Assembly (NCBI GenBank): GCA_021831785.1
Contig: JAKBMB010000007.1
Coordinates: 62,001 to 126,000, forward strand
Origin: Deltaproteobacteria bacterium
GTDB lineage: Bacteria > Desulfobacterota > Binatia > Binatales > Binataceae
Direction of reading: 5' to 3'
DNA: 64,000 nucleotides
Shown here: in pieces, positions 30,718-47,835 of the stretch
Layout: each line of letters starts with the position of its first letter
Position numbering within the stretch: position 1 is the first letter of the stretch
Position numbers and translations under genes: made by a program
Notes under the pieces: model-generated
What the model was told of the DNA's origin: nothing
Seen by the model: only the letters and a program-made list of their open reading frames with translations
Database searches by the model: none

Positions 30718-32199
30718 TCAGGCAGAGTGAGCCGCGGCATTGCGCCAGGCGATGCCCAGGCGCGCAAACATTTCTACCGCAAGCCATCCGATGCCGAGTC
30801 CGAGAGCGATCACAAACGGCGTGCCCACTTTGGCAAAGATCTGCCACTCGGGAAGATGCTCGGCGTAGCGACGGGGAACGCCGGCTGCGCCCGACAGGAA
30901 GAGCGTCAGCACAAAGCCAAGCCCGCCGAGCCCGTACATCCAGGCCGCAATCTTGCTGGCAAAGCGGTCATGGCGGCCGCTGAGCTCGCCGGTGAGATGA
31001 TAGAAGTAGGCCCAGACGAAGGCCACCGCTCCGAGCAGGTAGTAGGTGTGAAAGTGCGCCGGCACCCAAAGCGTATTATGCATCACCTGGTTTACCGCAA
31101 TCGTCGAGTCCAGGAGGGCGCCGATGCCGCCAAAGACCCATCCCCACAGTCCCCAGGCGATGAGGATCGAAGGCACCGACCAGCGCATCCCGGAGCGGTA
31201 AATCAGGGTAAGCCCACCCGTCACGGTAACCAGTATCACCGGCAGGCCGGCGGCGTACGATCCTACCTGTCCTACGATTTGCATCCCCAGCGGTTGAACG
31301 AAATCTTGGTAGAGGTGATGCGGGTAGGGCAGGATTACGCCCACCACCAGCACATTGAAGGCGAGCACCACGGGCCAGCTTGCCTTCCATGCGCGCCCGA
31401 CGTAGACCGGCAATGTTGCATAGACGAGGCCTGCCGCAAGGTAGATGGTCAGGTTCGCGGTCATATGCCCGAAGAAGAACATAAAGTTTTTTGCCAAAAG
31501 CGCGTCGAGCGAGCCCACCAGTCCCGCTGCCTGCGCAAGCATCGCCATGAGCAACAAGGCACCGGCGGCGACTGTCAGGACGCCATCAATCGAAACCGCC
31601 GTCGCTGCCAGCACCATAGGCGGAGGCGGGGGTGAAGCCTGGTTCTTGCCGGCCGAAAAAAGATAGGGCCAGCCAAGCGCGCCGCCAAGCCCACCGAAGG
31701 CGCGCCTAGCCGCATAGAGCACGTTGAGACAGAAAAGCAGAAAGCCGACGCCGATAAGAAGATAAGCGATACACGAGACGACAGCCGCCCACAGCGGCCA
31801 TTCATGGCTGGGGTCGAAAGGAAGTGGCGGAAGCATCGTCCATCCCGCGGCAAAGCCGCCAATCAGGGTGCCTATGACGAAAAGCGCCACACCGGCGAGG
31901 TAAACAACATACGCCGCCCACAGCAAGCGGGGGCTCAGGCTAATCGCCATACTCAGCGCGTTGGCGAGCCCACCCATAGCGCCAAGCAGCGCCATCGCGA
32001 TCATCCCGCCCCCATGCAGCGTCATGACCTGGTAGAACTGAAGCGGAGGTAAAACGAAAAGTCCGGCCTGATCAAGCCGCATCAGAAGCCCCAGCAGACC
32101 CATAAGCAGGAACAAGCCGAGCGCCGTGGTCATGTAGACGAGCGCGAGCCTTCTCAAGGCCGCGGCGCGTTCGCCCCGCGGGTCTATGTCTGTCATCAT
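30718..32199 (-). CDS. Heme-copper oxidoreductase subunit I lacking the active-site Tyr (B-family-like)
   Basis: The roughly 493-residue protein has about twelve membrane helices. The heme and copper ligands are intact: TLHGGGM (low-spin heme His), GHMTAN (first CuB His), YPHHLYQDF (CuB His pair) and MHNTLWVPAHFHTYY (both heme irons). In oxygen reductases of the A and B families the cross-linked Tyr sits four residues after the first CuB His (GHPxVY). Here that position is Asn (codon at 31453-31455). This fits non-canonical NO reductases better than an oxidase. I use the ATG at 32199 after AAGGGGG. The CuA subunit gene lies 54 bases upstream. HNTLWVPAHFH resembles ba3 oxidase. Confidence 0.85.
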   Translation of the reverse strand: MMTDIDPRGERAAALRRLALVYMTTALGLFLLMGLLGLLMRLDQAGLFVLPPLQFYQVMTLHGGGMIAMALLGAMGGLANALSMAISLSPRLLWAAYVVYLAGVALFVIGTLIGGFAAGWTMLPPLPFDPSHEWPLWAAVVSCIAYLLIGVGFLLFCLNVLYAARRAFGGLGGALGWPYLFSAGKNQASPPPPPMVLAATAVSIDGVLTVAAGALLLMAMLAQAAGLVGSLDALLAKNFMFFFGHMTANLTIYLAAGLVYATLPVYVGRAWKASWPVVLAFNVLVVGVILPYPHHLYQDFVQPLGMQIVGQVGSYAAGLPVILVTVTGGLTLIYRSGMRWSVPSILIAWGLWGWVFGGIGALLDSTIAVNQVMHNTLWVPAHFHTYYLLGAVAFVWAYFYHLTGELSGRHDRFASKIAAWMYGLGGLGFVLTLFLSGAAGVPRRYAEHLPEWQIFAKVGTPFVIALGLGIGWLAVEMFARLGIAWRNAAAHSA

Positions 32200-32253
32200 C
32201 ACCCCCTTGTTCAAGCATCTGCGCCAGCGCAGGCACACCGAATGCTTATTTCA

Positions 32254-32769
32254 CTATTTCACTGTCAGCGGCGTTACCATCACGTAGTGCGGCATGCCGC
32301 AGTATTCAAGACAGCGAATCATGTAAGTGCCGGGACGCTCGAAGGCGTAAATCAAATGGTTGGTGTATCCCGGCATCGCCTGCACCTGGGTGAGTAACTT
32401 CCCGTCCGGGCTGTAAACTGCGAGACCATGGTTTACATCTTTGGAGGTTACGACGAACTCGATCGGCGTCTTGGCAGGCACCTCGCTGGTGCTGAGCTTC
32501 CAGTACCATTGCGAAGCTATTACCTGAACCACCAGTTGCGGCTTACCGATGGTCAGCGCGCGCATCGGGAAGTAGGGCAGCCAGTAGAAAGAGACCAGCA
32601 GAAGGAGGGTTAGCGAACCTGCAGACAGGTAAAAGAGGCGACGGCGAATCACGTCCACCTTCGGAACAAGTTCCTCATACGCAGCCCGGCCTCCGGAGTG
32701 GCCAAGAACCCAGACCCAGACCGCCGTCCATATAACGCCAAGCGCGGCGAGAACGCCGAATACGACCAT
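32254..32769 (-). CDS. CuA-containing subunit II of heme-copper oxidoreductase
   Basis: The 171-residue protein has two N-terminal membrane helices (about 1-24 and 45-68) and a periplasmic cupredoxin domain. The CuA ligands are complete: the His in DVNHGL and the C-terminal CLEYCGMPHYVM (Cys, Glu, Cys, His, Met). The segment QVIASQWYWKL carries the aromatic patch used for electron entry. It accepts electrons from a periplasmic donor and passes them to the subunit I encoded just downstream. The domain is minimal, as in small ba3-type subunits II. Confidence 0.92.
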   Translation of the reverse strand: MVVFGVLAALGVIWTAVWVWVLGHSGGRAAYEELVPKVDVIRRRLFYLSAGSLTLLLLVSFYWLPYFPMRALTIGKPQLVVQVIASQWYWKLSTSEVPAKTPIEFVVTSKDVNHGLAVYSPDGKLLTQVQAMPGYTNHLIYAFERPGTYMIRCLEYCGMPHYVMVTPLTVK

Positions 32770-36397: not shown

Positions 36398-37104
36398 GAT
36401 GAACGCTGCTCCATCATCGCAGCGATCGCGCGCTCGAGCGTCCGCTCCCCGGTCAATCGCGCCGCCTCACCGGGCGCGCCGTCGAAATATACCTTTCCGT
36501 CCAAAAGGAAAATCACCCGGTCCGACAATTCCTCGACTTCGGCGATGATATGCGAGGCCACCAGGATCGTCTTGCCGCGCGCCCGTTCTCGTTCAAGCCA
36601 TTTCTTTTGGCGCTGGCTTGAGAGCGGATCCAGGCCTGCCGTAGGTTCGTCCATGATAAGAATTTCCGGGTCGAACATGGTCGCCAGTACGATGCTGATC
36701 TTTTGACGCGTTCCTCCGGAGAGCTGCCGCACGGGCCGATCGAGCGCTCCTTCGAGGCCGAATAACCCGATCAGTTCCTTGCCGTCACCGCTATCGGCAC
36801 CCCGGATATCGCGAATGAACGCGAACAGTTCCCGCACCGAGAGGCTCTCGGGAAAATGGGCGGTTTGCGCAACGTAACCAAGCCTGCGCCGGCAGCGCCA
36901 GTCGCCGTTTATGCTGAGCCCGTCGATGCGAATTTCGCCGGCATCCGGGTAAACCAACCCTACGATGCATCTCAAAAGCGTGCTCTTCCCCGCAGCGTTC
37001 GGCCCCACCACCGCGGTAATTTCACCCGGTTTTATCGCCAGGCTGATCCCGTCCAGCGCCCTTATTGAACCGAAGCGTTTTTTAAGACCCGCGATTTCGA
37101 CCAC
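36385..37104 (-). CDS. nosF: ABC transporter ATP-binding protein, NosF type
   Basis: The 239-residue protein is a complete ABC ATPase. Walker A GPNAAGKSTLL is near residue 34, the Q-loop is in YVAQTAHFPESL, the signature is LSGGTRQK, Walker B is ILIMDEPTAGLD and the switch His is in VASHI. It energises the NosY membrane partner during CuZ assembly. Its start lies 42 bases inside the end of nosD, and its stop overlaps the nosY start, so the three are translationally coupled. Confidence 0.93.
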   Translation of the reverse strand: MVEIAGLKKRFGSIRALDGISLAIKPGEITAVVGPNAAGKSTLLRCIVGLVYPDAGEIRIDGLSINGDWRCRRRLGYVAQTAHFPESLSVRELFAFIRDIRGADSGDGKELIGLFGLEGALDRPVRQLSGGTRQKISIVLATMFDPEILIMDEPTAGLDPLSSQRQKKWLERERARGKTILVASHIIAEVEELSDRVIFLLDGKVYFDGAPGEAARLTGERTLERAIAAMMEQRSSCGR

Positions 37105-38402
37105 GAAGGCCTCGCGATGAGCGGTTTTTCGTCGGCCAAGTTGCGCGGCGTAAGCACTGGGATGGCCTCTTCGGCTGTGTCCAGCAACTCCGCGAACGGA
37201 CTGCGCAAAAGCACAATCGCCGCCGGGTACTCTTCGAGCAGGAGCCCAAAGAGCCGGACCGGCCAGAACGGAACGTCGCCGATTCCATCGTGGTCGAGGT
37301 CATAGCCACGATAATCGTCCCAGTAATTGCCGTTAAACGAGTTCGCGGACTGCGTCGACGAATTGGTGGTCACATCAAAAGCGTTCGCCTCAAATACATT
37401 GCCGGAGAAAGCGTTGCTATCCGCGTTGGCCATGATCCGGACAGCGAAACCGTTGTTGTAGAATCGGTTCTTCGTGAGGAAGTTGCGGTTGGCATCCTCG
37501 GCATAAAGCGCCACCGAATTGTGAAAAAAGAGGTTGTCTGCCAGTTCGCTATCGTCAAGATCCTTAAGCAACGCGCCGTAGCATGCCGCTCCCCAATTGT
37601 CTTCAAAGCGGTTGTCGATCACCCTGAGCCGTTTCGAATACATCAGGACGACGCCGGCTAGGTTCGCGCGCAGTAGATTGCTCTGATAGTAGTTATCCGC
37701 CGAGTACATGGTATGAAGGCCATAGCGCACGTTTTTCTCGCTGACATTGTGGCGCACGGCGCTGGCGTGCAAAAACTCGAAGTAAAGCCCATCCCTATGG
37801 CCGGTCACGTAGTTTCGCTCAAGGGTAATGTGGTGGGAGTTCCAAAGATGGATCCCGTTGCCGGAAAATGCCTCCGAGGTAGCGTTGCCGTACACCTGGT
37901 TGTCCCGTACCACGCAGTCCTCGCTCGCCGCTAAATAGATGCCAAAGAAATTATCGATTAATCGATTACCCTCGATAACGCAGCGGCGGGCTGCTTCAAC
38001 TCTGAGTCCCGCCAGGTCGGCAAGATAACTTTTTGCTGAATTTCGGATCACAAGTCCCGAAATGCTCACATCGTCAGCTTTCACGGTTAACACCTGGTTC
38101 TTGCCCGCGCCGTCGATCACCGGCCAGCCTTGTCCGACGATCTCCACCGGCTTATCAACCACAATTTCGCCTTCCACGTAAAGGCCGCTTTGAACCACAA
38201 TTCTGCCCCCCGTGGGAGCTTCTCTGAGCGCGTCAACCAGGCGCTTTACCTCACACGTAGGACAGACCACGAGTGTCGGCCGTTGAGCTTGACCCTGCGG
38301 CGCCGCAGGCTGGGTGCCGGCCGTCGCATCGCTGGGCGCGAATAGCGCAAGCATGACGAACAGCGGGAATATCAACCCTAACAGCCATCGCCCCATGCTC
38401 AT
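37062..38402 (-). CDS. nosD: NosD periplasmic copper-site maturation protein
   Basis: The roughly 446-residue protein has a signal peptide (MSMGRWLLGLIFPLFVMLAL, then SDATAG) and a right-handed beta-helix of the CASH/NosD type. Repeats are seen as GLRVEAARRCVIEGNRLIDN, GIYLAASEDCVVRDNQVYGN, GIHLWNSHHITLERNYV and so on. The C-terminal region has the family motif NYWDDYRGYDLDHDGIGDVP. NosD works with NosFY in the periplasm to build the CuZ cluster of NosZ. The frame is open upstream to 38480. I prefer the ATG at 38402 because it gives a normal signal peptide and sits 43 bases after nosL. Confidence 0.92.
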   Translation of the reverse strand: MSMGRWLLGLIFPLFVMLALFAPSDATAGTQPAAPQGQAQRPTLVVCPTCEVKRLVDALREAPTGGRIVVQSGLYVEGEIVVDKPVEIVGQGWPVIDGAGKNQVLTVKADDVSISGLVIRNSAKSYLADLAGLRVEAARRCVIEGNRLIDNFFGIYLAASEDCVVRDNQVYGNATSEAFSGNGIHLWNSHHITLERNYVTGHRDGLYFEFLHASAVRHNVSEKNVRYGLHTMYSADNYYQSNLLRANLAGVVLMYSKRLRVIDNRFEDNWGAACYGALLKDLDDSELADNLFFHNSVALYAEDANRNFLTKNRFYNNGFAVRIMANADSNAFSGNVFEANAFDVTTNSSTQSANSFNGNYWDDYRGYDLDHDGIGDVPFWPVRLFGLLLEEYPAAIVLLRSPFAELLDTAEEAIPVLTPRNLADEKPLIARPSWSKSRVLKNASVQ

Positions 38403-38445
38403 CCGAGAGGACCTGTATGCCGAACCTGTCTGAAGCCTTGAAGGC

Positions 38446-38973
38446 TTAGCCGGGTCGGATCGTGGCATCCGTGGCGCCATGAGCGGGCTGTGTCTTGAGA
38501 ATCTCGTTCCACGATATCTCGGTGCCGCCTAAGCTCGCGAGCGCCTGGCTACGATCGGTCTGACGCGAAAAGGCGATAAAATTTCTTCTCATGGGACTGT
38601 GCAGCCGCAACGCCTTCAAATAAAAGGCCGCCGCCGCCGGAATCAACTGATCAGGGTGCGCGAAGTCGCTGACCCACATTGAGTGGACCTCGGCCGGCGC
38701 AACCTCATCTTCAGCCACAAAGCTCGCCAGACATTCGATCGAATCGAAGTAGTAGACCCGCCCCTCTTTGGTCACCAGCTCAGCGGCAAAGCGGGGATCG
38801 CTAACAATCATGTGGCAGTACGCGCACTCCACGCCGCCAAAGTGAATTGGATAAGGCGGTGCCGGGTTGCAGCCCGCGACAACCGCCATCGCCATCAATC
38901 CCGTAAAGCCAAGCCAGAGGCCTGCGACGAGGCCACCCGCCGGTCCCCTTGGTAGAGAGAAATCTCCTTTCAT
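38446..38973 (-). CDS. nosL: NosL copper chaperone lipoprotein
   Basis: NosL delivers Cu(I) to the nitrous oxide reductase maturation machinery on the periplasmic side. The N-terminus has a hydrophobic segment ending in the lipobox VVAGC. The mature part carries the copper-binding motif ECAYCHMIVSD and the segment VYYFDSIECLASF typical of the family. The frame is open to a GTG at 39060. The ATG codons at 38985 and 38973 both give a normal lipoprotein signal, and neither has a clear ribosome site, so the exact start is uncertain. Confidence 0.9.
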   Translation of the reverse strand: MKGDFSLPRGPAGGLVAGLWLGFTGLMAMAVVAGCNPAPPYPIHFGGVECAYCHMIVSDPRFAAELVTKEGRVYYFDSIECLASFVAEDEVAPAEVHSMWVSDFAHPDQLIPAAAAFYLKALRLHSPMRRNFIAFSRQTDRSQALASLGGTEISWNEILKTQPAHGATDATIRPG

Positions 38974-39139
38974 GCTGCGGCTCATGCTGCGGCGGCTGAA
39001 TCGACGCGCACGATTAGACCCACTCCTGCCATCGCTCGCCACGCCATCATCCTGCGGCACTCGTCTAACAGCGGGCGCGAGTCGCGGCTCAGCTCGCCCG
39101 ATTTCGGCGTCGCCTCACCTTTTTACCAACTGCGCGATG

Positions 39140-39781
39140 CTATCCCAATCGATACTGCGAACGCTCTTTGCGATCAGCGTCGGCAGTCCTCGAAATGCCA
39201 AGGGATGCCTGAGCGCTCAAATGTGCCAGCTCCCACACCAGCGCAACCCCTCCGAGCGCAAACGAAAACATCATTGCAAAGGCCCCCCAATCCGGCCAGG
39301 CCATGATGTGGAAGTTGAGAAACATGTAAGCGCCGATTAGGTGGGGAGTAAAAGGCGGTATCTTGATGGCTGCGTGAGGGTCGAGGTCGTGGCCGTATAC
39401 GTACAGCCAGCGATAGAAATCCCCAAGCAGCGCAAGACCGCTGATCGCGAAAAAGCCCAGCCATGCAAGAAGCGATCTGAGTCCGCCGAAAAGGCCAACC
39501 GCAAGACCAGATACAATAAGCAACACCAGCAATACTGGAATTATCTTGAGCTCGACGAATTCGCTTTCGACTATTTCGTGCATCCCGATGTAATGGTTGA
39601 GTTCATTGATCAGGTCAACTCGTCCTGTAATGCGGTTTGCATAGATCCACATCATAAGGCCTTCGGGATACTGCGGCGCACTGAATCCATAACTCCAGAG
39701 CGGCGCCATAAAAGCGGGCACAAGACTGATTGCGGAAAGCACGATCAAAACACGTGATATTTGCTGTAATTTGCCGTACAT
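39140..39781 (-). CDS. Membrane protein of the nos cluster (NosB-like candidate)
   Basis: The 213-residue protein has four or five membrane helices. Conserved-looking polar motifs sit at their ends: WIYANRITGRVDLINELNHYIGMHEI after helix 1, and DFYRWLYVYGHDLDPHAAI and FHIMAWPDWGAF later. Several His and Asp residues face the periplasmic side and could bind metal or haem. Clade II (Sec-type) nos operons carry a membrane protein, NosB, between nosZ and the maturation genes, and this one sits at that place. I infer the family from position and topology. GGAGAAAC precedes the start. Confidence 0.72.
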   Translation of the reverse strand: MYGKLQQISRVLIVLSAISLVPAFMAPLWSYGFSAPQYPEGLMMWIYANRITGRVDLINELNHYIGMHEIVESEFVELKIIPVLLVLLIVSGLAVGLFGGLRSLLAWLGFFAISGLALLGDFYRWLYVYGHDLDPHAAIKIPPFTPHLIGAYMFLNFHIMAWPDWGAFAMMFSFALGGVALVWELAHLSAQASLGISRTADADRKERSQYRLG

Positions 39782-40255: not shown

Positions 40256-42256
40256 CTATTTGCCGCCGCCGTGCCACACCAATGCGACGTTCTCGCCTGG
40301 CGGCGACACCCGCACGTAACCCTGCATTTCCTGGTGCAGCGCGGAGCAGAAATCCGTGCAGTAAAACGGAAACACTCCGACCTTTCTAGGGACCCACTTC
40401 AGCGTCAGAGTTTCGCCGGGCATGACCAGGAGGTCAGAGTTGCCCGCGCCGGCGACGGCGAAGCCGTGCGGGATGTCCCAATCCTGCTCCAGGTTGGTGA
40501 CATGCAAGTAAACCGTGTCTCCGAGGTGAACCCCTTCGATGTTATCGGGCACGAAGTGGCTGCGAATCGCGGTCATATAGACGTGCACCTCGTTGCCTCG
40601 CCGTTCGACTCGAGCGTCCTTTTCGCTGGTGATCGCGTAGGGGTTCTTATTCTGCGTGAGGTCATAGTACTTGAGGCTTTTCGGCATCAGGAGGCTGGCC
40701 GGAATGGCTTGTCCGTAGTGAGGTTCGCCAATGTTCGGAAAGTCGAGCAGCAAGCGCATTTTCTCGCCCGAGATGTCAATTAGCTGGGCGGATTGCGCCA
40801 GCTCAGGTCCGGTTGGGAGATAGCGGTCCTTGGTGATTTTGTTGAGTGCAACCACGTACTTGCCCCACGGCTTGGCCGAGTCGCCGCCGGGAATCATTAG
40901 ATGCCCAATCGAATAGTAGACCGGGATGCGGTCGACGATCTGCCAGGTGCCGAGCTTCCACTTGATAATCTCGGAACTGATAAAGCACGAAGTATAAACA
41001 TAGCCCTTTCCATCGAACTCGCTGTGAAGCGGGCCAAGACACGCGTTTTGAACCTCGCCGGCGACGATCGAATCGAACTTAAGCACCGGGATGCCGTAAG
41101 ACGGATGGTCGGGCTGAGGAGCTTCGAAGTCCTTGTTCTCGATCGCCTTGGTCATCTTGGCGAACGAATGCACCGCGATTGTAGAGGAGAGCTTCCCTCC
41201 GGGTACGATGTACTCGCCGCTCGGATCGACGTCCACGCCGTGGGGTGATTTCGGCGTCGGCAGATAGTACACCATGCTCTCGCATGCCTGAGGCGTAAGT
41301 ACGGTGGTGCTGCTCAGTTCTTCCGACTTTGCCACGTGGGTTACGGGATCGACGAAGTTGTGGAAGTATTGTGCAGGAATTTTCTGACCCTTGCCCTGCG
41401 CAAGGCATTGCTCGGCGCGTTTCCAGTTGACGGCGGCGATGAAGTCTTTGTCGAACTGCGAGGCGTTCACCTCCAGCAGGGTGTGAGCCTCTTCGGTGTT
41501 GTAGCTGGAGAAAAAGCACCAGCCGTGAGACGGCCCCTTGCCGCAATGAGCCACGTCATAGTCGAAGCCGGGCATCAGTATCTGAAAGGCGATGCTCATG
41601 CTTCCGGTTTTAGGATCGGGTTTGATGAAGTTCAGCGTGCCTTTGAAGTTTCCCTTGTAGTCGGCTATTGGCATATCCTTTTGCGGAATCGGAACGCTAA
41701 AACGCGTGCCGGCAACGATATATTCGCTGTTCTCCGTTATGAACGGTGCGGGATGCAGGCCATCGACATGGGGAATCTCGAGCGTCTCTACCGTTCTGAA
41801 TTCCCGCAAATCGATCCGCGCGACGCGCGGCGTGTTGTTCCCGTTGATGAAGAGCCAGCGGCCGTCCGGGACGCCGTTGGTTTGGGAAAGTTCGGGGTGA
41901 TGGGCGTCGTCCCAGGGAACGAATCCATAAGAAGTCATCAACAGCGCCTTGGTCTCTTCAGAGAAGCCGTAACCGTCTTCCGGGTTAACACCGAAGACCG
42001 GGATGATCTGGAGTAAGCGCCCGGACGGCAGACCGACGACGTTGATTTGCCCATTAAAGCCGCCAGACAAGAAGGCGTAAAACTCATCGTACTTGCCCGG
42101 CGGGACGTACACGTCCAAAGCAGCTTGCTTTTGGGCTGGGCCCGCTTCTTGTTCGGACGGCGCGTTGGATGCCGGCTGATTGCACGAAGCGCTAAGCAGG
42201 GCGAGAGCCAACAGTGTTAAGCCAGCTTTTAGGGCGGTAAACCCTCCCTTTTTCAT
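40256..42256 (-). CDS. nosZ: Nitrous oxide reductase, Sec-exported (clade II) type
   Basis: NosZ reduces N2O to N2 in the periplasm. The 666-residue protein begins with a Sec or lipoprotein-like signal (MKKGG, LTLLALALLSASC) rather than a twin-arginine motif, which marks clade II. The beta-propeller has the CuZ histidine motifs (DDAHHPE, VDGLHPAP, SPHGVDVDPSGEY, GPLHSEFDGKGYVYTS, YYSIGHLMIPGGD, EPHYGQ). The C-terminal CuA domain has DIPHGFAV and Cys633, Cys637, His641 and Met644 in FYCTDFCSALHQEMQGY. All ligands are present. The start follows GGAGGAAAG. Confidence 0.96.
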   Translation of the reverse strand: MKKGGFTALKAGLTLLALALLSASCNQPASNAPSEQEAGPAQKQAALDVYVPPGKYDEFYAFLSGGFNGQINVVGLPSGRLLQIIPVFGVNPEDGYGFSEETKALLMTSYGFVPWDDAHHPELSQTNGVPDGRWLFINGNNTPRVARIDLREFRTVETLEIPHVDGLHPAPFITENSEYIVAGTRFSVPIPQKDMPIADYKGNFKGTLNFIKPDPKTGSMSIAFQILMPGFDYDVAHCGKGPSHGWCFFSSYNTEEAHTLLEVNASQFDKDFIAAVNWKRAEQCLAQGKGQKIPAQYFHNFVDPVTHVAKSEELSSTTVLTPQACESMVYYLPTPKSPHGVDVDPSGEYIVPGGKLSSTIAVHSFAKMTKAIENKDFEAPQPDHPSYGIPVLKFDSIVAGEVQNACLGPLHSEFDGKGYVYTSCFISSEIIKWKLGTWQIVDRIPVYYSIGHLMIPGGDSAKPWGKYVVALNKITKDRYLPTGPELAQSAQLIDISGEKMRLLLDFPNIGEPHYGQAIPASLLMPKSLKYYDLTQNKNPYAITSEKDARVERRGNEVHVYMTAIRSHFVPDNIEGVHLGDTVYLHVTNLEQDWDIPHGFAVAGAGNSDLLVMPGETLTLKWVPRKVGVFPFYCTDFCSALHQEMQGYVRVSPPGENVALVWHGGGK

Positions 42257-42340: not shown

Positions 42341-42829
42341 TCATTTTTTAGCCGCCTGATTTGATGCCTGCCGCAAGTATTCCAGCACCGCCCGAGCATC
42401 TTCTGGAGAAATACCGCTCACCGTCATAATCGAACCGTATTTCCCCACGAGGTCTCGGGCCACAGGATCGTTCATGATCATCCCGTTAGTGTTGAGAACC
42501 ATATTCATGATCCACTCGGGCGACCTCAGCTTGGTGACGTTGCCTAACGGAGGACCGACATAGCGGGAGTCAAGCCGGTGACAAACCGAACAGTGCGTCG
42601 CGAAGATCTTCTCACCATTGGCGGCCAACGCGGGATCGAGCGGCCCAAGTTTGACTTCCTTAATCGGCCCAACGCCCTTATCTGGTAACGAAGGGCTCTC
42701 GGGCGGGGCCGGGAGCTGGCCTAATGCCTGCCGAGCGGTCATCGCGCCAACGATGCCGAAAACCAACGCGAAAACTCCGAATCCGATTGACGTCGACCGA
42801 ACTGGTCGATCCCCTCGCATCAAAGCCAT
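42341..42829 (-). CDS. Monohaem cytochrome c of the nos operon
   Basis: The 162-residue protein has a signal or membrane anchor (residues about 14-32) and one class I cytochrome c domain with the haem site CSVCH (Cys80, Cys83, His84). Later methionines in MNMVLNTNGMIMNDP and IMTVSGISPEDA can supply the sixth ligand. It is a likely periplasmic electron donor to NosZ, encoded 84 bases downstream. AAGGAGGT lies upstream of the ATG at 42829, somewhat far at eleven bases. The frame is open to 42889, but the earlier Met has no ribosome site. Confidence 0.9.
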   Translation of the reverse strand: MALMRGDRPVRSTSIGFGVFALVFGIVGAMTARQALGQLPAPPESPSLPDKGVGPIKEVKLGPLDPALAANGEKIFATHCSVCHRLDSRYVGPPLGNVTKLRSPEWIMNMVLNTNGMIMNDPVARDLVGKYGSIMTVSGISPEDARAVLEYLRQASNQAAKK

Positions 42830-43513
42830 GCTGCTGAATGACCTCCTTACTGAGTGACATTGGGCCGTTGCGCCAGTTCGTCCTTGCAAGCGCTGAGACG
42901 CGCTTCATGGCATCGTTAAGGCTGACTCGAATTGTTTCTTGCGAGTGGCCTGAGCATAAGAGGCAAGACCCTCAAATAAGCAATATGAAAGCAACTTTTA
43001 GGCCAGTTGCTCGAGACCATGCAGCGCAGGATTAGTAGACCTTCTTCGCGCACCGATGGGTCATCTACGGGACACCGTGGGGCATCGATTCCTCGGTCAG
43101 CGACCACGGTCCTCCGACCGCCAGCCGAGACCTGGATCAACTCGCCGGCGCCGGCCACTTTCGAGGTCGCTTGCTCGCCTATCAGCGGAAACCAACTGTC
43201 TCAATTTCGTTGACGCACTCCACTGCAAGGGCAGCGCGCGCAACAGCTTCTCCAGCGTGAGCGGCAGCCCCCAGCCGGCCGCGTAGAGCCGCGTCGAGTT
43301 GATCAAAGCTCGCACTCAACTCCTTCGGCGCCGCATCCGTCATCGTACGGAGCGCCCGCAAAGACTGGTCCCGAGGGATTCGCCGTCCCGCCGAAATGTG
43401 GCTGAACATCGAAGACTGCTGGTGGTCCGTTCCCCGCATCCCCTTCCTTCTCACGCGAGGATGACCGCAATCCTGCTGCACAATCAATCGAGAAACGAGG
43501 TTTTTTCCGCAAC
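42830..43513. other. Regulatory gap between Rrf2 gene and nos operon
   Basis: This gap of about 680 bases must hold the nos promoter. I see no FNR/NNR box of the TTGAT-N4-ATCAA kind and no clear NsrR palindrome. A minus-strand ORF at 43182-43343 could encode a 53-residue acidic/Ala-rich peptide (MTDAAPKELSASFDQLDAAL...), but it lacks a Shine-Dalgarno site, so I do not call it a gene. Confidence 0.4.
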
Positions 43514-43936
43514 TTACTGGGCAAACCTACCGGGCAACTTCGCCACCGCCGCCAACGAAAGCCGGTCCAGCGCTTCGACCAACACCGGGCGAGTCCGCTT
43601 CCACACTTCGTGCAAAACACAGGGATGCGAGTCCGAACATCGATTGCTCCAGAACACGCAGCGCTCGAACAGGTCCGGGCCGTCGATTGCCTCCACGATC
43701 TGGCGCACTGATATTTCGCCCGGCGGTCTGGCCAGCGCGTAGCCGCGCTCCTTGCCGCCCTGGAGCGAACACAGGATTCGGTGGCGTACCAGCTTATGCA
43801 AGATTTTCGGGACAAACGATTCAGGCAGCCCTGCGGCCTGCGCTAACTGGCGCGCATGAAGAAATACCTCGGGCGGCGCTTTGGCCAACTCGGCCGCGGC
43901 CGCCAGCGCGTAGCTGCTTTCTCTGGATAGCTTCAC
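43514..43936 (-). CDS. Rrf2 family regulator with three Fe-S-type cysteines (NsrR/IscR-like)
   Basis: The 140-residue protein has the Rrf2 winged helix (MKLSRESSYALAAAAELAK, QLAQAAGLPESFVPKILHKLV, the wing GKERGYALARPPGEISV) and a dimerisation helix. Three cysteines in ERCVFWSNRCSDSHPCVLH, spaced C-x6-C-x5-C, sit where IscR and NsrR bind their iron-sulfur cluster. NsrR-type members sense nitric oxide. The gene begins 32 bases after the second heme-copper subunit I and lies upstream of the cytochrome c-nosZ genes, so control of either by NO is plausible. The sensed signal is not proven by sequence. Confidence 0.9.
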   Translation of the reverse strand: MKLSRESSYALAAAAELAKAPPEVFLHARQLAQAAGLPESFVPKILHKLVRHRILCSLQGGKERGYALARPPGEISVRQIVEAIDGPDLFERCVFWSNRCSDSHPCVLHEVWKRTRPVLVEALDRLSLAAVAKLPGRFAQ

Positions 43937-43968
43937 CCAAGCTTACGAGTCCTGCCGCTCCTGCGGGT

Positions 43969-45687
43969 TCAGTGCACCGGCCAGACGTGTCCCAGGAAGA
44001 ACATGTTAACCGCGACAACGACAAAGAAAAACAGCAGAAAAACGTTCACCAGCACCACGGTGCCGGGAACACCATGGCCTAAGGCGGCTAGTCCGGGCGG
44101 GGAACTTGCCACTGGCACTAGCGGCTGCTGCGAGGCCGGGATCCGTTCGCCCCACAGCAAGGTCGCCACAGCAATGCCGACGTAAAGGGCGCCACCGACC
44201 AGTGCTAGCACGGCCCCGACGCCAGCGATGTCCAGCGCGAGGTAGGCACCGGTAGGGAAGTGCACCGCCACCGGCGAGCCCTGATAGGCGATGCTCGCGA
44301 CTCGTCTGGGCACCCCGTAGGCAGCCCCGGCGTTCATCATGCCGATTCCGAGCAAGGCCACGCCCACTCCGTACAGGTAGGGCTGGATAATGGCCAGCCG
44401 CCAGCCCACCACCTTCCTGCGAACGACCAGTGGAAGCAGGTAATAGGTCAGGGCCATGAACGCCAGCGTGGTGCCGCCGACCACCGTTGCGTGAAAGTGG
44501 CCCGGGATGGCCAGTGTGTTGTGGTGTAGGATGCTGACCGGCCCGTGACCGAAGGCCACCCCGGTGGTGCCGCCGAGAAATCCGAAGATCAGGAGCGACA
44601 GCGCCGACCCCGAGAATCCCGGCTCTTTCCAGGGAGCTTTTCTGAGCCATTCGAACCAGCCCCGGGTGTAGCCCTTGGCACGCTGCGCGACCTCCACCGC
44701 GGCCGGAATCGAGAAGGCGTGGATCATGCTCCCTAGGACCGCAGAGTACATGGCGTAGCTCGTGTTCCAGTACTTAAAGGAACGCGACAGGCCCGGGTCG
44801 ACCAGCAGGTGATGAACCGAGCCGAGCTGGATGGTCAGGATGTAGAGCAGAAACGCGAACCGGCTAAGCTTCTCGTTTAACGGCTTGGCACCCACCGTCA
44901 TGTATGCCAGCAGGTACCACACCGACACCATCGCCGCCAGGTTGACCTGCTGCGTGCCGTGACCCAGAAGCCAGATCGTGAGCCGATAGGTCTCAGGATC
45001 CTCGTGCATCAGCCCGAACGACCACAGCAAGGCGGGCACAAAGGTAAATACCCCGCCAAGAAGAGAGCTGACCGCAAGGATGGCGGCGGTGGCAAGGCCG
45101 AAGGTGACCAGCGGCACCGAGCCGCGATAGCGACCCTCGGCTTTGGCTACAACCAGCGTGGCGAAGAATATGCAGCAGGCCAGAAACGCCCCGACCGCGA
45201 ACAGGTCGTAACTCAGGTAAAAGCTCGGCGGCGCTTGCATGGGAGCGTACGCGTCCCACATTACGTCAGCACGTCCCGAGAAGACCACCACGTCTCCCAA
45301 GACCGCCCCGGCCAGCATCAGGGCATAGGCCACCCAGGCCAACTTGGGAGTCACCAGTCGGGCATTGAGCACGATCGCGCTCCCGAAATAAAGGCCAGCG
45401 ACCTCAAAGAAGATGATCCAGTAGATCAGCATGTTCATGCCGTGAGCTGTGAGGAACCGGTAATACAGTTCCGGGTTGCCCGAAAGCAGGCCCACCGCCG
45501 GCCATCGGGTCAAGCCCACGAACAGCGCCATGATCCCCCCGATCAGCAAGAAGACCACCGCGGTCACGGCGTTTACCGTGATCAGCCGCTCGGCGGCGAG
45601 GTCGACCCGCAACCCGGTCACCTGGCAGATACGCGACTCGAACTCGACCGGACGCCTAATAGCGACGGCTGCGGCTCCGGATGCCAT
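43969..45687 (-). CDS. Heme-copper oxidoreductase subunit I with Tyr-to-Gln change (second set)
   Basis: The roughly 572-residue protein has at least thirteen membrane helices. Metal ligands are intact: TAHGMNMLIYW (low-spin heme His), GHGTQQVN (first CuB His), GSVHHLLVDP (CuB His pair), and HHNTLAIPGHFHAT (heme irons). At the position of the cross-linked Tyr, four residues after the first CuB His, it has Gln (codon 44947-44949). The fold is nearest the B family, but the missing Tyr argues against oxygen reduction and for NO reductase-type chemistry. The ATG at 45687 has AAGGAG eight bases upstream and starts four bases after the subunit II stop. Confidence 0.88.
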   Translation of the reverse strand: MASGAAAVAIRRPVEFESRICQVTGLRVDLAAERLITVNAVTAVVFLLIGGIMALFVGLTRWPAVGLLSGNPELYYRFLTAHGMNMLIYWIIFFEVAGLYFGSAIVLNARLVTPKLAWVAYALMLAGAVLGDVVVFSGRADVMWDAYAPMQAPPSFYLSYDLFAVGAFLACCIFFATLVVAKAEGRYRGSVPLVTFGLATAAILAVSSLLGGVFTFVPALLWSFGLMHEDPETYRLTIWLLGHGTQQVNLAAMVSVWYLLAYMTVGAKPLNEKLSRFAFLLYILTIQLGSVHHLLVDPGLSRSFKYWNTSYAMYSAVLGSMIHAFSIPAAVEVAQRAKGYTRGWFEWLRKAPWKEPGFSGSALSLLIFGFLGGTTGVAFGHGPVSILHHNTLAIPGHFHATVVGGTTLAFMALTYYLLPLVVRRKVVGWRLAIIQPYLYGVGVALLGIGMMNAGAAYGVPRRVASIAYQGSPVAVHFPTGAYLALDIAGVGAVLALVGGALYVGIAVATLLWGERIPASQQPLVPVASSPPGLAALGHGVPGTVVLVNVFLLFFFVVVAVNMFFLGHVWPVH

Positions 45688-45691
45688 GTGC

Positions 45692-46219
45692 TCACTCCTT
45701 GACAATAACGCGGCCGGCCATGAGATGATGGCCGACGCCGCAGTATTGGTTGCAGAGAATCGTGTAGACGCCGGCCTCAGTCGGGGTGAGCGTGAGAAGG
45801 CTGGCGTAGCCGGGCACCACCTGGAAGTTCATATTGACCGGTTGCAGCGAGAGGCCATGCTGGACATCCGTGGCGGAGAGGTAAATGTGATAGGTCTCCC
45901 CCTTCTTCAGCTCGAGGATCGGTGACCACTGGAAGCGCTGCGCGATCAGATAGGCGCTTGCTCCGGCAGGTGGACGAACCACGGGAATACCCTTGTAGGT
46001 GCCGACTTGGTAGCGCCGGATGAAGTCCTGCGCCACCCGGGCGAACTCTTCAGGAGAGATACGGTAGGATATCTCCGGATTGTCTGCCGCCCCGTAAGCG
46101 TGCCAAATCGGCATGCTCACGGATAGCAGCAACAAGAAGCTGACGCCGGTTACCACCCACACTCGCTCCGCCCTGCTCAGCGGCTTCCACCATATGCGCT
46201 CCGGAGCGGCGATAGGCAT
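45692..46219 (-). CDS. CuA-containing subunit II (ba3-like), second set
   Basis: The 175-residue protein has one N-terminal membrane helix (VWVVTGVSFLLLLSVSMPIW) and a periplasmic CuA cupredoxin domain. The ligands are complete: His in TDVQHGL, and CNQYCGVGHHLM with Cys, Cys, His and Met. CNQYCG is exactly the form found in Thermus ba3 oxidase, where Gln replaces the usual Glu. I prefer the ATG at 46219, with AGAGG upstream, over the Met at 46267. It lies between a blue copper protein gene and subunit I in one operon. Confidence 0.92.
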   Translation of the reverse strand: MPIAAPERIWWKPLSRAERVWVVTGVSFLLLLSVSMPIWHAYGAADNPEISYRISPEEFARVAQDFIRRYQVGTYKGIPVVRPPAGASAYLIAQRFQWSPILELKKGETYHIYLSATDVQHGLSLQPVNMNFQVVPGYASLLTLTPTEAGVYTILCNQYCGVGHHLMAGRVIVKE

Positions 46220-46293
46220 TTTCTCTTTTACCTCTCTTCGGCTGACCCACGCTGCGCGGCCCGGCAAAGGTTCGCTTGTACCCGGTCGCTCAT

Positions 46294-47001
46294 CTATTTG
46301 GCGACGACCGTCGGCTTGATGGACACCGACTCAGAGACCTCAAGAATCCCGTACATCCCTGCCAAGGCGTGGCCGGGAACCCCGCAGATCAGTAGGTACC
46401 TGCCCGGCCTGTTCGCCGTAAATCGGGCCCCGGCCGACTGACCGGGTGGCGTGCCTGCCAGCGGACTCGGCGTTTGGGCACCGGAAAATGCCGGCTGGGC
46501 AAGCGCGGTCAACGGGGGCGTGACCGCATAGGGAATAATCTGAACGCTGTGCGGGGTATTGCCCCGGTTGACCAGAGTCAGTTCCACCTCTGCTCCCACG
46601 GGGACGGTGATGACCGGATGCCCTTTGGTTCCGCCATTGAAATTGAAGCCGGCGTTGGCCTGGTCTTCACTGGCCACCAGTTTGAAGGCCGCACTTGCCG
46701 ATCCTGTAGCTCGAACCGGGACCTCAGCGGGCGCGTTGGGCACCGCAGGCCCGGTGGCCGCCTGCGCCCGCGTGGCTGCTTGAACCTGGCTAGCCGTCTG
46801 CGCCGGGGCGCCGATCAGCTCGGGGAACGGGGGGGTGCCGGAAATGTTCAAAAGGCCCCAGACTATGTAAAAGCCCACGGCGATGGTGACGTTGAGGCCA
46901 AGCAAAAGGAAGATATCGTCCAGCAGGAGCTGGCCGTAGGGTATGGGGCCGGAGCCTGAGCGTTCGCCGCCCTGGTCTTCGGCGGGCGCGTCCTTGTTCA
47001 T
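46294..47001 (-). CDS. Membrane-anchored sulfocyanin-like blue copper protein
   Basis: The 235-residue protein has a membrane helix at about residues 29-50 (IFLLLGLNVTIAVGFYIVWG), an Ala/Pro/Gln-rich linker, then a cupredoxin domain. The type 1 copper ligands are visible: His in NRGNTPHSVQI, and Cys, His and Met in LLICGVPGHALAGM. The start of the domain (FNFNGGTKGHPVITVPVGAEVEL) resembles archaeal sulfocyanin. It is the first gene of the second heme-copper set and is the obvious membrane-bound electron donor to the CuA subunit encoded next. Confidence 0.85.
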   Translation of the reverse strand: MNKDAPAEDQGGERSGSGPIPYGQLLLDDIFLLLGLNVTIAVGFYIVWGLLNISGTPPFPELIGAPAQTASQVQAATRAQAATGPAVPNAPAEVPVRATGSASAAFKLVASEDQANAGFNFNGGTKGHPVITVPVGAEVELTLVNRGNTPHSVQIIPYAVTPPLTALAQPAFSGAQTPSPLAGTPPGQSAGARFTANRPGRYLLICGVPGHALAGMYGILEVSESVSIKPTVVAK

Positions 47002-47336
47002 GAGGCAAACTCTCTAAAAAGACCGATTAACTCTTTTTAACCCCTGCTGTCAAGAGCGGCACGGCTTGGTCACGCCGGGGCATAGCCGGGTCTTACGTCT
47101 TGCATGAGGCCGGGTCGGAACGGCGGTTCCAATTCTGCTCCGCTGTAAGCGCGCCAACCCTTCACGGGCCGCTTCGCTGTGTCACGCTCGCAGGCTCCGC
47201 GCCCGGCGAGTCGGGATCTCGCGCAACCTGCGCGGCGTCGACCGATGGGATGCACCCAGCCCGTTTCCTGAAACGGTTTCGCAATGGCCAGAATGGCAAC
47301 TTTGATCATCACGCAAGATAACGGGAGGGTCCGAGG
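47002..47336. other. Intergenic region upstream of the second heme-copper operon
   Basis: This 335-base gap should hold the promoter of the sulfocyanin operon. An AT-rich patch at 47015-47042 (CTAAAAAGACCGATTAACTC) is the best place for it, but no clear hexamer pair is seen. Confidence 0.35.
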
Positions 47337-47390
47337 ATGGAAGTTACAACGATCGGGATCGATGTGGCAAAGGGAACGGGTCGCGAGGAA
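47337..47390 (+). pseudogene. IS110-family transposase N-terminal remnant
   Basis: An ATG with GGGAGGG upstream begins MEVTTIGIDVAKG, which is the start of IS110 transposases (the DEDD catalytic domain opens with this strand and its first Asp). After these 13 residues the similarity stops and the frame reads as random sequence. Only the 5' end of the gene therefore survives. Confidence 0.65.
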
Positions 47391-47602
47391 CGCTGGCCCA
47401 TGAACCCGGGCTTTTCACTGCCCAACCGGACTAGCAATCGGGTGACCCTCAACGTGCGAGGCACGACGAGTCGAACCGCAGCATCCCGCCGATTCTGTCC
47501 AAGGGCCGGCGAACCATCGCGCCCGGAAAATCCCGGAGCTCAAACGTTGTCCTTCGTGGAGCTTACGGCTCGAAAAGGTGGGCAAAAATTGCGCTTACTT
47601 TA

Positions 47603-47835
47603 TTATGCTAAGCTGTTGCTGCTCCCGGCGACGGCTTCAATTCGCTTGACGATATCGAGCCATAACGTGGCGCTCTGGACCTCGGTGAAGCCGGCCGCAC
47701 GGACAGCCGCCTCGGTTTCGCGATCAAGCCTCGCGCCGCACACGTGATAGAGCAGCGGTGAGAGCCGCCTGACATACCATCCGAGCCAGCGCCGCTGCGG
47801 CGGGACCCGTTCCAGCAGGAAGTAGTCGGCCGGCT
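47603..47835 (-). pseudogene. SAM-dependent methyltransferase, C-terminal fragment
   Basis: On the minus strand one frame reads through about 77 codons to a TAA. It gives ADYFLLERVPPQRRWLGWY, then VRRLSPLLYHVCGARLDRET, EAAVRAAGFTEVQSATLWLD and VKRIEAVA. The pattern of an L-x-x-L-Y-H segment followed by AAGF and a final beta hairpin is typical of the end of class I methyltransferases of the UbiE type. No start or SAM-binding GxGxG is present, because the upstream part is replaced by the transposase remnant. It is a truncated gene. Confidence 0.6.

Follow-up and report, generated by a model that had tools for sequence, protein, structure and literature searches.

The analyzed window, a 64,000-nucleotide stretch of DNA, carries a minus-strand operon whose heme-copper subunit I is most likely of the eNOR type, with NO-reductase function predicted by family. 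New here is that the anchor of the copper protein encoded in this operon is, by profile match, the small eNOR subunit. The parts of the system, their order, metal ligands, clade and fusion could all be established at the sequence level. We consider it probable that together they constitute a three-subunit B-branch eNOR, in which the fused copper domain would act as the electron donor and an Rrf2 protein would exert control. To our knowledge, the electron donors of eNOR are poorly characterized; the fused donor points to a likely electron source and opens the entry of electrons to direct tests.

The four genes previously claimed for this locus were all confirmed on the minus strand by ORF analysis and Pfam searches. 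The first encodes a fusion of the small eNOR subunit with a sulfocyanin-like copper domain (46294–47001), followed by CuA subunit II (CNQYCGVGHHLM; 45692–46219; ATG start; PF00116 COX2, 24.1 bits, cut-off 22), eNOR-type subunit I (43969–45687; ATG start; PF00115 COX1, 187 bits, cut-off 34.8) and an Rrf2-family regulator (43514–43936; GTG start; PF02082, 93 bits, cut-off 30). Longer TTG-start forms are also found among the ORFs for the CuA subunit and subunit I. The operon had been placed directly upstream of the nos genes. It does lie ahead of them on the same strand, but a 624-bp gap and a gene for a cytochrome c (42341–42889; minus strand; PF00034, 42.6 bits) separate it from nosZ, which encodes a Sec-dependent (clade II) nitrous oxide reductase (40256–42256; minus strand; TIGR04246, 916 bits, cut-off 625). 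The nos accessory genes (37062–39781; minus strand) encode NosL (38446–39060; PF05573, 46 bits), NosD (37062–38480; TIGR04247, 425 bits) and a membrane protein without a family match (39140–39781), which we presume from its gene position to be NosB-like.

Sequence comparisons revealed a complete set of metal ligands in subunits I and II. Subunit II contains the CuA motif C-N-Q-Y-C-x3-H-x2-M, and the pattern C-x3-C-x3-H-x2-M is present in all 97 loci that have a CuA ORF, including the window. For subunit I, the alignment columns bore out the earlier assignment of the His ligands (H82, H243, H292, H293, H397 and H399) and of Gln247, four residues after H243, to the Tyr column of ba3 oxidases. 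These six heme/CuB histidines are complete in 97 of 98 rows, including the window; the exception is Thermus locus L029, where H399 is replaced by Lys. At the position in helix VI where Tyr at H+4 marks the ba3 oxidases (18/18 rows), every row of the clade that includes the window enzyme (98/98) has Gln. The work of Hemp and Gennis in 2008 and of Murali et al. in 2024 reportedly describes eNOR as an NO-reducing member of the heme-copper enzymes in which Gln occupies the Tyr site. The same residue is given as the distinguishing mark of eNOR in Table A4 and the Figure 6 legend of PMC8756737, a source that places eNOR in Chloroflexi, Proteobacteria and Archaea.

In the phylogenetic tree, 43 Gln rows form a single clade (100/99) adjacent to 18 ba3 rows (99/99), with the A family further out, and the Tyr-less subunit I falls outside the ba3 oxygen-reductase clade. 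Because the tree was built without published eNOR sequences, and also without cNOR, qNOR, bNOR, gNOR and nNOR, the assignment to eNOR is based on the Gln residue, the position next to the B family and the range of taxa in which the clade occurs. As the subunit I clade fits the published eNOR description, the NO-reductase reading holds by family. The preliminary description of a sulfocyanin-fed, NO-controlled NO reductase was therefore upheld in part: the NO-reductase component is backed by the Gln residue, the clade and genomic links to nitrite reduction across the family, and the electron source and regulation are discussed below.

An oxygen reductase with a lost Tyr, or a mixed O2/NO enzyme acting at low oxygen, would be a rather improbable reading of subunit I, although two features speak for it. 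The AlphaFold model of the subunit (pLDDT 81.9, pTM 0.86), of which only the fold match was used, is closest to ba3 oxidases in the PDB (TM by query length 0.75–0.80). Furthermore, an active-site Tyr could be supplied from another helix, a candidate being the invariant Tyr282 of helix VII, which lies ten residues before the HH pair in 98/98 rows. At the sixth residue ahead of the HH pair, where we take C-family (cbb3) enzymes to have their Tyr, 98/98 rows have Ile or Leu instead. Among the columns aligned to the K-channel residues of ba3 oxidases, according to what we assume to be their numbering, Y258 and S320 are kept and H323 replaces Thr. The separation of the clade from ba3, the association of the eNOR family with NirS and its fusion to NirS argue against an oxygen reductase, as does the window's genome itself, which already has Tyr-bearing A-family subunits (L001–L003).

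The small eNOR subunit is a one-helix protein that was recognized in 120 of 123 loci, in 115 of them as a short gene of its own. These comprise 96 of 98 loci (the two misses are at contig ends), 23 of an additional 24 and, finally, L185. The subunit has a conserved Q, D and P-x3-Y-x2-W-G pattern; three examples had no Pfam match, and its profile gave zero matches at E ≤ 10 among 2093 ORFs of 22 ba3, sNOR-like and other heme-copper loci. In the window, residues 22–61 of the stop-to-stop ORF match this profile (E = 4e-15, with the window sequence included in the profile). The small-subunit part spans about residues 1–60, with a helix at 22–53 in a low-confidence AlphaFold model of the fusion alone (pLDDT 52), which was used for the helix only. 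The protein initially described as a membrane-anchored copper protein is indeed anchored, but by the small eNOR subunit instead of an independent anchor.

The copper domain covers about residues 101–225, with the ligands H151, C206, H211 and M216 in a C-x4-H-x4-M pattern that is presumably the one of sulfocyanin and rusticyanin. Its original naming as sulfocyanin agrees with the SoxE domain, which exceeds the Pfam cut-off (PF06525, 58.2 vs. 21 bits), but the score for the NCBIfam sulfocyanin model TIGR03094 is below its cut-off (73.1 vs. 168.4 bits), and we therefore use the term “sulfocyanin-like”. The fusion is found in two genomes only (G000 and G028), that is, in the window and one relative, and in 1/395 genomes of the phylum sample. 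All four type 1 ligands are retained in both copies. Between them, the linker drifts (dN 0.84), while the anchor (0.30) and the copper domain (0.28) are conserved.

Other lineages carry different partners on the same helix. In a Fraserbacteria genome (L032), the partner of the small subunit is a cytochrome c, and in two alphaproteobacterial genomes (G477 and G698) it is a cytochrome c plus NirS, the nitrite reductase that produces NO. Through its gene structure, the NirS fusion links the family to NO beyond the loss of a residue. Tentatively, and with somewhat less than even confidence, we suggest that the one-helix subunit may be a docking platform on which partners are exchanged: a copper domain, a cytochrome c, or a cytochrome c with NirS, the latter forming an NO-passing membrane complex. 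If so, NirS and the NO reductase would hand NO between their active sites with little release. Such a hand-over within one complex, as suggested by the NirS fusion, bears on NO and N2O leakage from denitrifying communities.

In the proposed mechanism, subunit I would hold a low-spin heme, a high-spin heme and CuB, with Gln instead of Tyr. The small subunit would occupy the membrane next to subunit II and extend its C-terminus into the periplasm, as subunit IIa does in ba3 oxidases, and a loosely conserved linker of ~40 residues would join it to the type 1 copper domain. This domain may draw on the periplasmic electron pool, with a bc-type complex or the cytochrome c encoded at 42341–42889 as possible sources, and probably hands the electrons to the enzyme. 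From there, they would pass through CuA and heme to the heme–CuB site, which would catalyze 2 NO + 2 e− + 2 H+ → N2O + H2O, and the N2O would go to the NosZ encoded next door. Alternatively, the enzyme could be an eNOR whose copper domain is not a donor but a copper store, a CuA/CuB metallochaperone or an enzyme-tied scavenger. The copper demand of the nos cluster and of the CuA/CuB sites is consistent with such a role, and a SCO-family gene neighbors the eNOR of Defluviimonas. We consider it unlikely in view of the four type 1 ligands kept in both fusion copies; moreover, an electron carrier fits better than a chaperone because the anchor in the sister lineage L032 carries a cytochrome c.

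The system can be compared with several known ones. Rusticyanin and SoxE, the sulfocyanin found in the archaeal SoxM complex, are type 1 copper proteins that have been proposed as donors to heme-copper enzymes, and the window domain resembles them in fold and ligand spacing. Both serve oxygen reductases, and we know of no fusion of either to a small subunit. The window enzyme shares with eNOR the Gln at the Tyr site, the relation to the B family, the CuA gene upstream of subunit I (45692–46219) and occurrence in Chloroflexi and Proteobacteria, and differs in the fusion of its small subunit to a type 1 copper domain; PMC8756737 presents eNOR as a two-subunit structure and does not use the term “small subunit”. 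The small eNOR subunit resembles CbaD, the subunit IIa that PMC3128077 describes for the ba3 oxidases of Thermus and Aquifex, in size, single helix, gene position before subunit II and a conserved Trp, but has its own Q, D and P-x3-Y-x2-W-G pattern and is at most a candidate homolog. According to the same paper, halocyanin is fused to subunit IIa in a haloarchaeal ba3 oxidase, again a blue-copper protein on a one-helix third subunit encoded just upstream of subunit II. There the helix is C-terminal, whereas in the window it is N-terminal and joined to a sulfocyanin-like domain; furthermore, the haloarchaeal example L030 keeps the Tyr (GHPVVY) that the window enzyme lacks. The copper fusion is thus a new variant of an already published principle, and it is no evidence for NO as the substrate because halocyanin–IIa fusions occur in oxygen reductases too. 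In open-access literature, we found no heme-copper NO reductase with a fused type 1 copper domain, and among the titles and abstract openings listed, none reported fusions of this kind, save for the paper on a Chloroflexi C1-C2-NirS fusion. The source genome of that protein also has an eNOR (PMC8756737). Like the fusions in L080 and G698, it has extra N-terminal parts on a cytochrome c–NirS protein, but the added part is a cytochrome instead of the eNOR small-subunit helix.

Genes of the eNOR type are widespread: at least 458 relatives were confirmed, and a scan of phage contigs found none there; those on annotated plasmids carry oxidase-subunit labels. The named loci are the closest 80 of these at least 458 relatives, which biases the sample toward near relations. 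NirS-like genes were present in 36 of 52 eNOR genomes and NosZ-family matches in 16 of 52, with 50 of the 80 named genomes covered by these searches. Within alphaproteobacteria, NirS-like genes occur in 13/14 eNOR genomes vs. 17/240 of the class, and NosZ matches in 9/14 vs. 18/240, the 240-genome control being unmatched for genome size and lifestyle and possibly containing eNOR genomes itself. Among the 13 NirS-like genes, the one in G474 is a possible paralogue, with 47% identity. The window's genome had no NirS-like match at E ≤ 1e-40, and for NirK it gave a weak match at best (145 of 296 bits). Linkage of the operon to nosZ is not a general trait: in flanks of varying length, at most 10 kb, nosZ was confined to the window and one of the 80 named loci (the closest 80 of at least 458), and nos linkage was dropped as a defining trait of the operon.

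The Rrf2 protein has the three cysteines noted before (C93, C100 and C106), which are aligned in 5/5 NOR-linked Rrf2 proteins. Its suggested NsrR-type identity was not supported (25.2 vs. a cut-off of 182 bits), and only the Rrf2 superfamily model passes its NCBIfam cut-off. Control of the operon by this protein is probable and would involve a cluster that responds to NO, redox or iron state, and NO sensing may be envisaged. It is also quite possible, if somewhat short of an even chance, that the protein resembles IscR and SUF regulators in sensing iron–sulfur or redox conditions and that the operon is outside NO control; its highest specific NCBIfam scores are those for a SUF regulator (69 bits, cut-off 111) and IscR (51 bits, cut-off 208), ahead of NsrR. 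Gene neighborhoods point the other way: in 3/82 loci (the window, G028 and L032), the Rrf2 gene lies within 130 bp of subunit I, an Rrf2 gene is located beside sNOR-like genes in Ruegeria pomeroyi, and in Thermus L029 the Rrf2 gene follows subunit I and precedes a DUF542 gene, which we assume to be linked to repair of NO-damaged clusters. A weak candidate operator, the inverted repeat TAAAAAGA-N9-TCTTTTTA (47015–47039; minus strand), lies 8 nt after TTGACA (47048–47053), and a related repeat is present in the G028 operon leader. A promoter scan did not call the TTGACA promoter; it returned two promoter-like sites (0.9 expected), none at the operon start. Terminators were no more frequent than by chance (4 vs. 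4.7 expected).

Beyond the nos cluster, the window contains a second, sNOR-like pair on the minus strand, consisting of a CuA subunit (32254–32769; PF00116, 40 bits) and a Tyr-less heme-copper subunit I with Asn at the Tyr site (30718–32238; GHMTAN). The latter shares 53% identity with a Thermomicrobium roseum plasmid gene and 39% with a gene of Ruegeria pomeroyi (Silicibacter) located in an Rrf2/CuA/subunit I/SCO cluster, which we take to be norSY-senC. The sNOR-like group has Asn in 3/3 rows and forms a single clade (100/99) with a weak inner order (86/31). Within these three rows, the pair at 30718–32769 shows the sNOR traits of Asn at the Tyr site, a CuA subunit and the relation to Ruegeria.

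The four genes of the preliminary description are all present on the minus strand, with Pfam matches above curated cut-offs: a copper protein (46294-47001; SoxE), a CuA subunit (45692-46219; COX2), a heme-copper subunit I (43969-45687; COX1) and an Rrf2 regulator (43514-43936; Rrf2). Downstream, a gap of 624 bp precedes a gene for cytochrome c, which is followed by nosZ of the Sec type (TIGR04246, 916 bits). NosL and NosD are encoded along with it; by eye, this nos region also includes an ABC ATPase and a permease. Upstream of the operon, the ORF at 47337-47747 (+), whose start resembles that of an IS110-type transposase, is perhaps a broken insertion element. The genome measures 3.68 Mb and is 96% complete.

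Judged by its sequence, subunit I is an eNOR-type enzyme. We compared 98 related subunits by column (the window, four others, 13 from a phylum search, and the best 80 of at least 458 relatives). Throughout this set, the site of the cross-linked Tyr is Gln (98/98), preceded directly by Gln and followed two residues later by Asn (98/98), and 97 rows retain every His ligand; ba3-type rows have Tyr at the site (18/18). In cbb3 oxidases, a Tyr stands six residues before the HH pair; this position is Ile or Leu in all 98, of which 80 are the best of at least 458 relatives. In the same set, Tyr282, ten residues before the pair and a candidate for a Tyr that might reach the active site from helix VII, is invariant, and so are E95, Y311 and H323; ba3 rows have Phe at the first position (18/18) and other residues at the remaining three. 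Subunit I falls outside the ba3 oxygen reductases in a 68-row tree, which included ba3 and A-family rows and no published eNOR sequences: the 43 Gln rows form a single clade (100/99), the 18 ba3 rows form another (99/99), and A-family rows fall outside. Within this tree, the window clusters with G028, a genome of the same family, and Fraserbacteria locus L032 (100/100). An AlphaFold model (pLDDT 81.9) finds its best PDB matches in ba3 oxidases. In two studies, Gln is given as the eNOR residue, with eNOR occurring in Chloroflexi, many Proteobacteria and Archaea (PMC8756737), and eNOR is described as biochemically characterised and related to B-family oxidases (PMC11388526). The one row with an incomplete set of His ligands is an eNOR-like subunit I encoded on a Thermus thermophilus plasmid (L029:8986-10671, +), with Lys for the second His of GHFH (HFK), a change that presumably removes a low-spin heme ligand.

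The most interesting aspect is that one small subunit bears a copper domain here and cytochrome c or NirS elsewhere. In the membrane-anchored copper protein described earlier, the SoxE domain is joined to an N-terminal anchor that is the one-helix eNOR small subunit. Among ORFs of 87 sequence sets, the copper protein mostly matched a short ORF adjoining CuA, and only through query residues ~4-64; the other three matches (L029, L032 and L036) are copper domains within larger NirK-like or multicopper proteins. With a profile made from the ORF matches, 96 of 98 loci (including the best 80 of at least 458 relatives) proved to have the small subunit, and the two others, L063 and L143, lie at contig ends. 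Across these loci, the ORF stops no more than 10 residues past the helix in 90, has a tail of 31-33 residues in two, and runs on for more than 100 in four. Among 24 further loci, it is a separate subunit in all 23 from the phylum of L035; the remaining one, L195 from the phylum of L032, has CuA and subunit I and no recognisable small subunit adjoining CuA. Searched against 2093 ORFs from 22 heme-copper loci of the ba3, sNOR-like and other types, the profile gave no match with E of 10 or below.

The long forms of the window and G028 join the small subunit to a SoxE domain. Their dN is 0.30 for the anchor, 0.84 for the linker and 0.28 for the copper domain (dS 1.1-1.6), so both ends are constrained and the linker far less. 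Another of the four long forms, from Fraserbacteria (L032:8867-9409, +), carries cytochrome c (PF00034); a NirK-like multidomain copper protein is encoded directly upstream and Rrf2 directly downstream. In genome G477, the small-subunit helix is followed by cytochrome c and cytochrome d1, that is, NirS (L080:7043-8938, -; PF02239, 487 bits). A second such fusion, in genome G698 (L185:1501-3489, -), is 93% identical over its full length; both genes diverge from the CuA gene, and both genomes belong to one class (Alphaproteobacteria by title).

Fusion of a blue-copper donor to a third subunit is already known. We read L030 by eye as two copper domains followed by C-terminal hydrophobic stretches, beside an enzyme that retains Tyr, and it seems to be a haloarchaeal-type halocyanin-subunit IIa fusion gene. 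Subunit IIa of ba3 oxidase is a single helix encoded upstream of subunit II, and in Haloarchaea it is found fused to halocyanin, termed the enzyme's redox partner (PMC3128077). That fusion has the reverse domain order and occurs in oxygen reductases; the window fusion therefore supports electron delivery and says nothing on substrate. As far as we searched, a fused putative copper donor in a bacterium is new; otherwise, the window protein is one more eNOR.

Tyr loss, clade and a link to NirS, which includes the NirS fusion itself, favour NO as substrate. Using the L080 fusion as query (E<=1e-40), we found a NirS-like gene in 36 of 52 eNOR genomes: 36 of 50 named ones, drawn from the best 80 of at least 458 relatives, and neither the window's genome nor G028. 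It occurs in 13 of 14 eNOR genomes titled alphaproteobacterial (among the matches listed) versus 17 of 240 genomes of the class; among these 13, G474 has a match of 47% identity that may be a paralogue. Of 82 loci (again including the best 80 of at least 458), 17 have NirS in the flanking sequence examined (E<=1e-100). Against NO counts the lack of a NirS-like match at E<=1e-40 in the window's own genome. Its contig C15 encodes a NirK-like protein (L112:1267-2292, +; 145 of 296 bits) that, by eye, apparently lacks the type 2 copper histidines. The bacterium may respire NO from other organisms; alternatively, its Nir may be of another kind or absent from the assembly.

On the side of the nos cluster away from the operon lies a second Tyr-less CuA heme-copper pair, sNOR-like with GHMTAN (30718-32769, -). 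Its subunit I has Asn at the Tyr site and forms one clade (100/99) with genes of Thermomicrobium and Ruegeria pomeroyi, formerly Silicibacter pomeroyi. Both Asn and Silicibacter are named for sNOR in PMC8756737. Two unusual NOR kinds thus appear to flank one nos cluster. Contig C17 of the same genome encodes another CuA heme-copper subunit I (L006:1405-2946, -), with Glu at H+4 and GHSM replacing GHFH, so that the second motif His is substituted; nearby genes look soxYZ-like by eye.

Control of the operon by NO through the Rrf2 protein, as proposed earlier, is plausible. In three of 82 loci (the window, G028 and L032; the set includes the best 80 of at least 458 relatives), an Rrf2 gene comes no more than 130 bp after subunit I, and on the Thermus plasmid Rrf2 and DUF542 genes likewise come after subunit I. 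In an alignment of five Rrf2 proteins linked to NOR genes, one of them encoded beside the Ruegeria sNOR-like genes, all share the three cysteines; the window protein scores below the NCBIfam NsrR cut-off. The presumed promoter coincides with an inverted repeat, and the leader of G028 holds a related repeat.

Subunit I matches occur in 18 of 41 genomes of the window's family (E<=1e-20), and only the window's genome and G028 have the Gln type. At E<=1e-90, the window's phylum has matches in 12 of 395 genomes, that of L032 in 2 of 100, and that of L035 in 25 of 350. Two genomes of one phylum each carry two eNOR subunit I genes (L144 and L152; L143 and L153).
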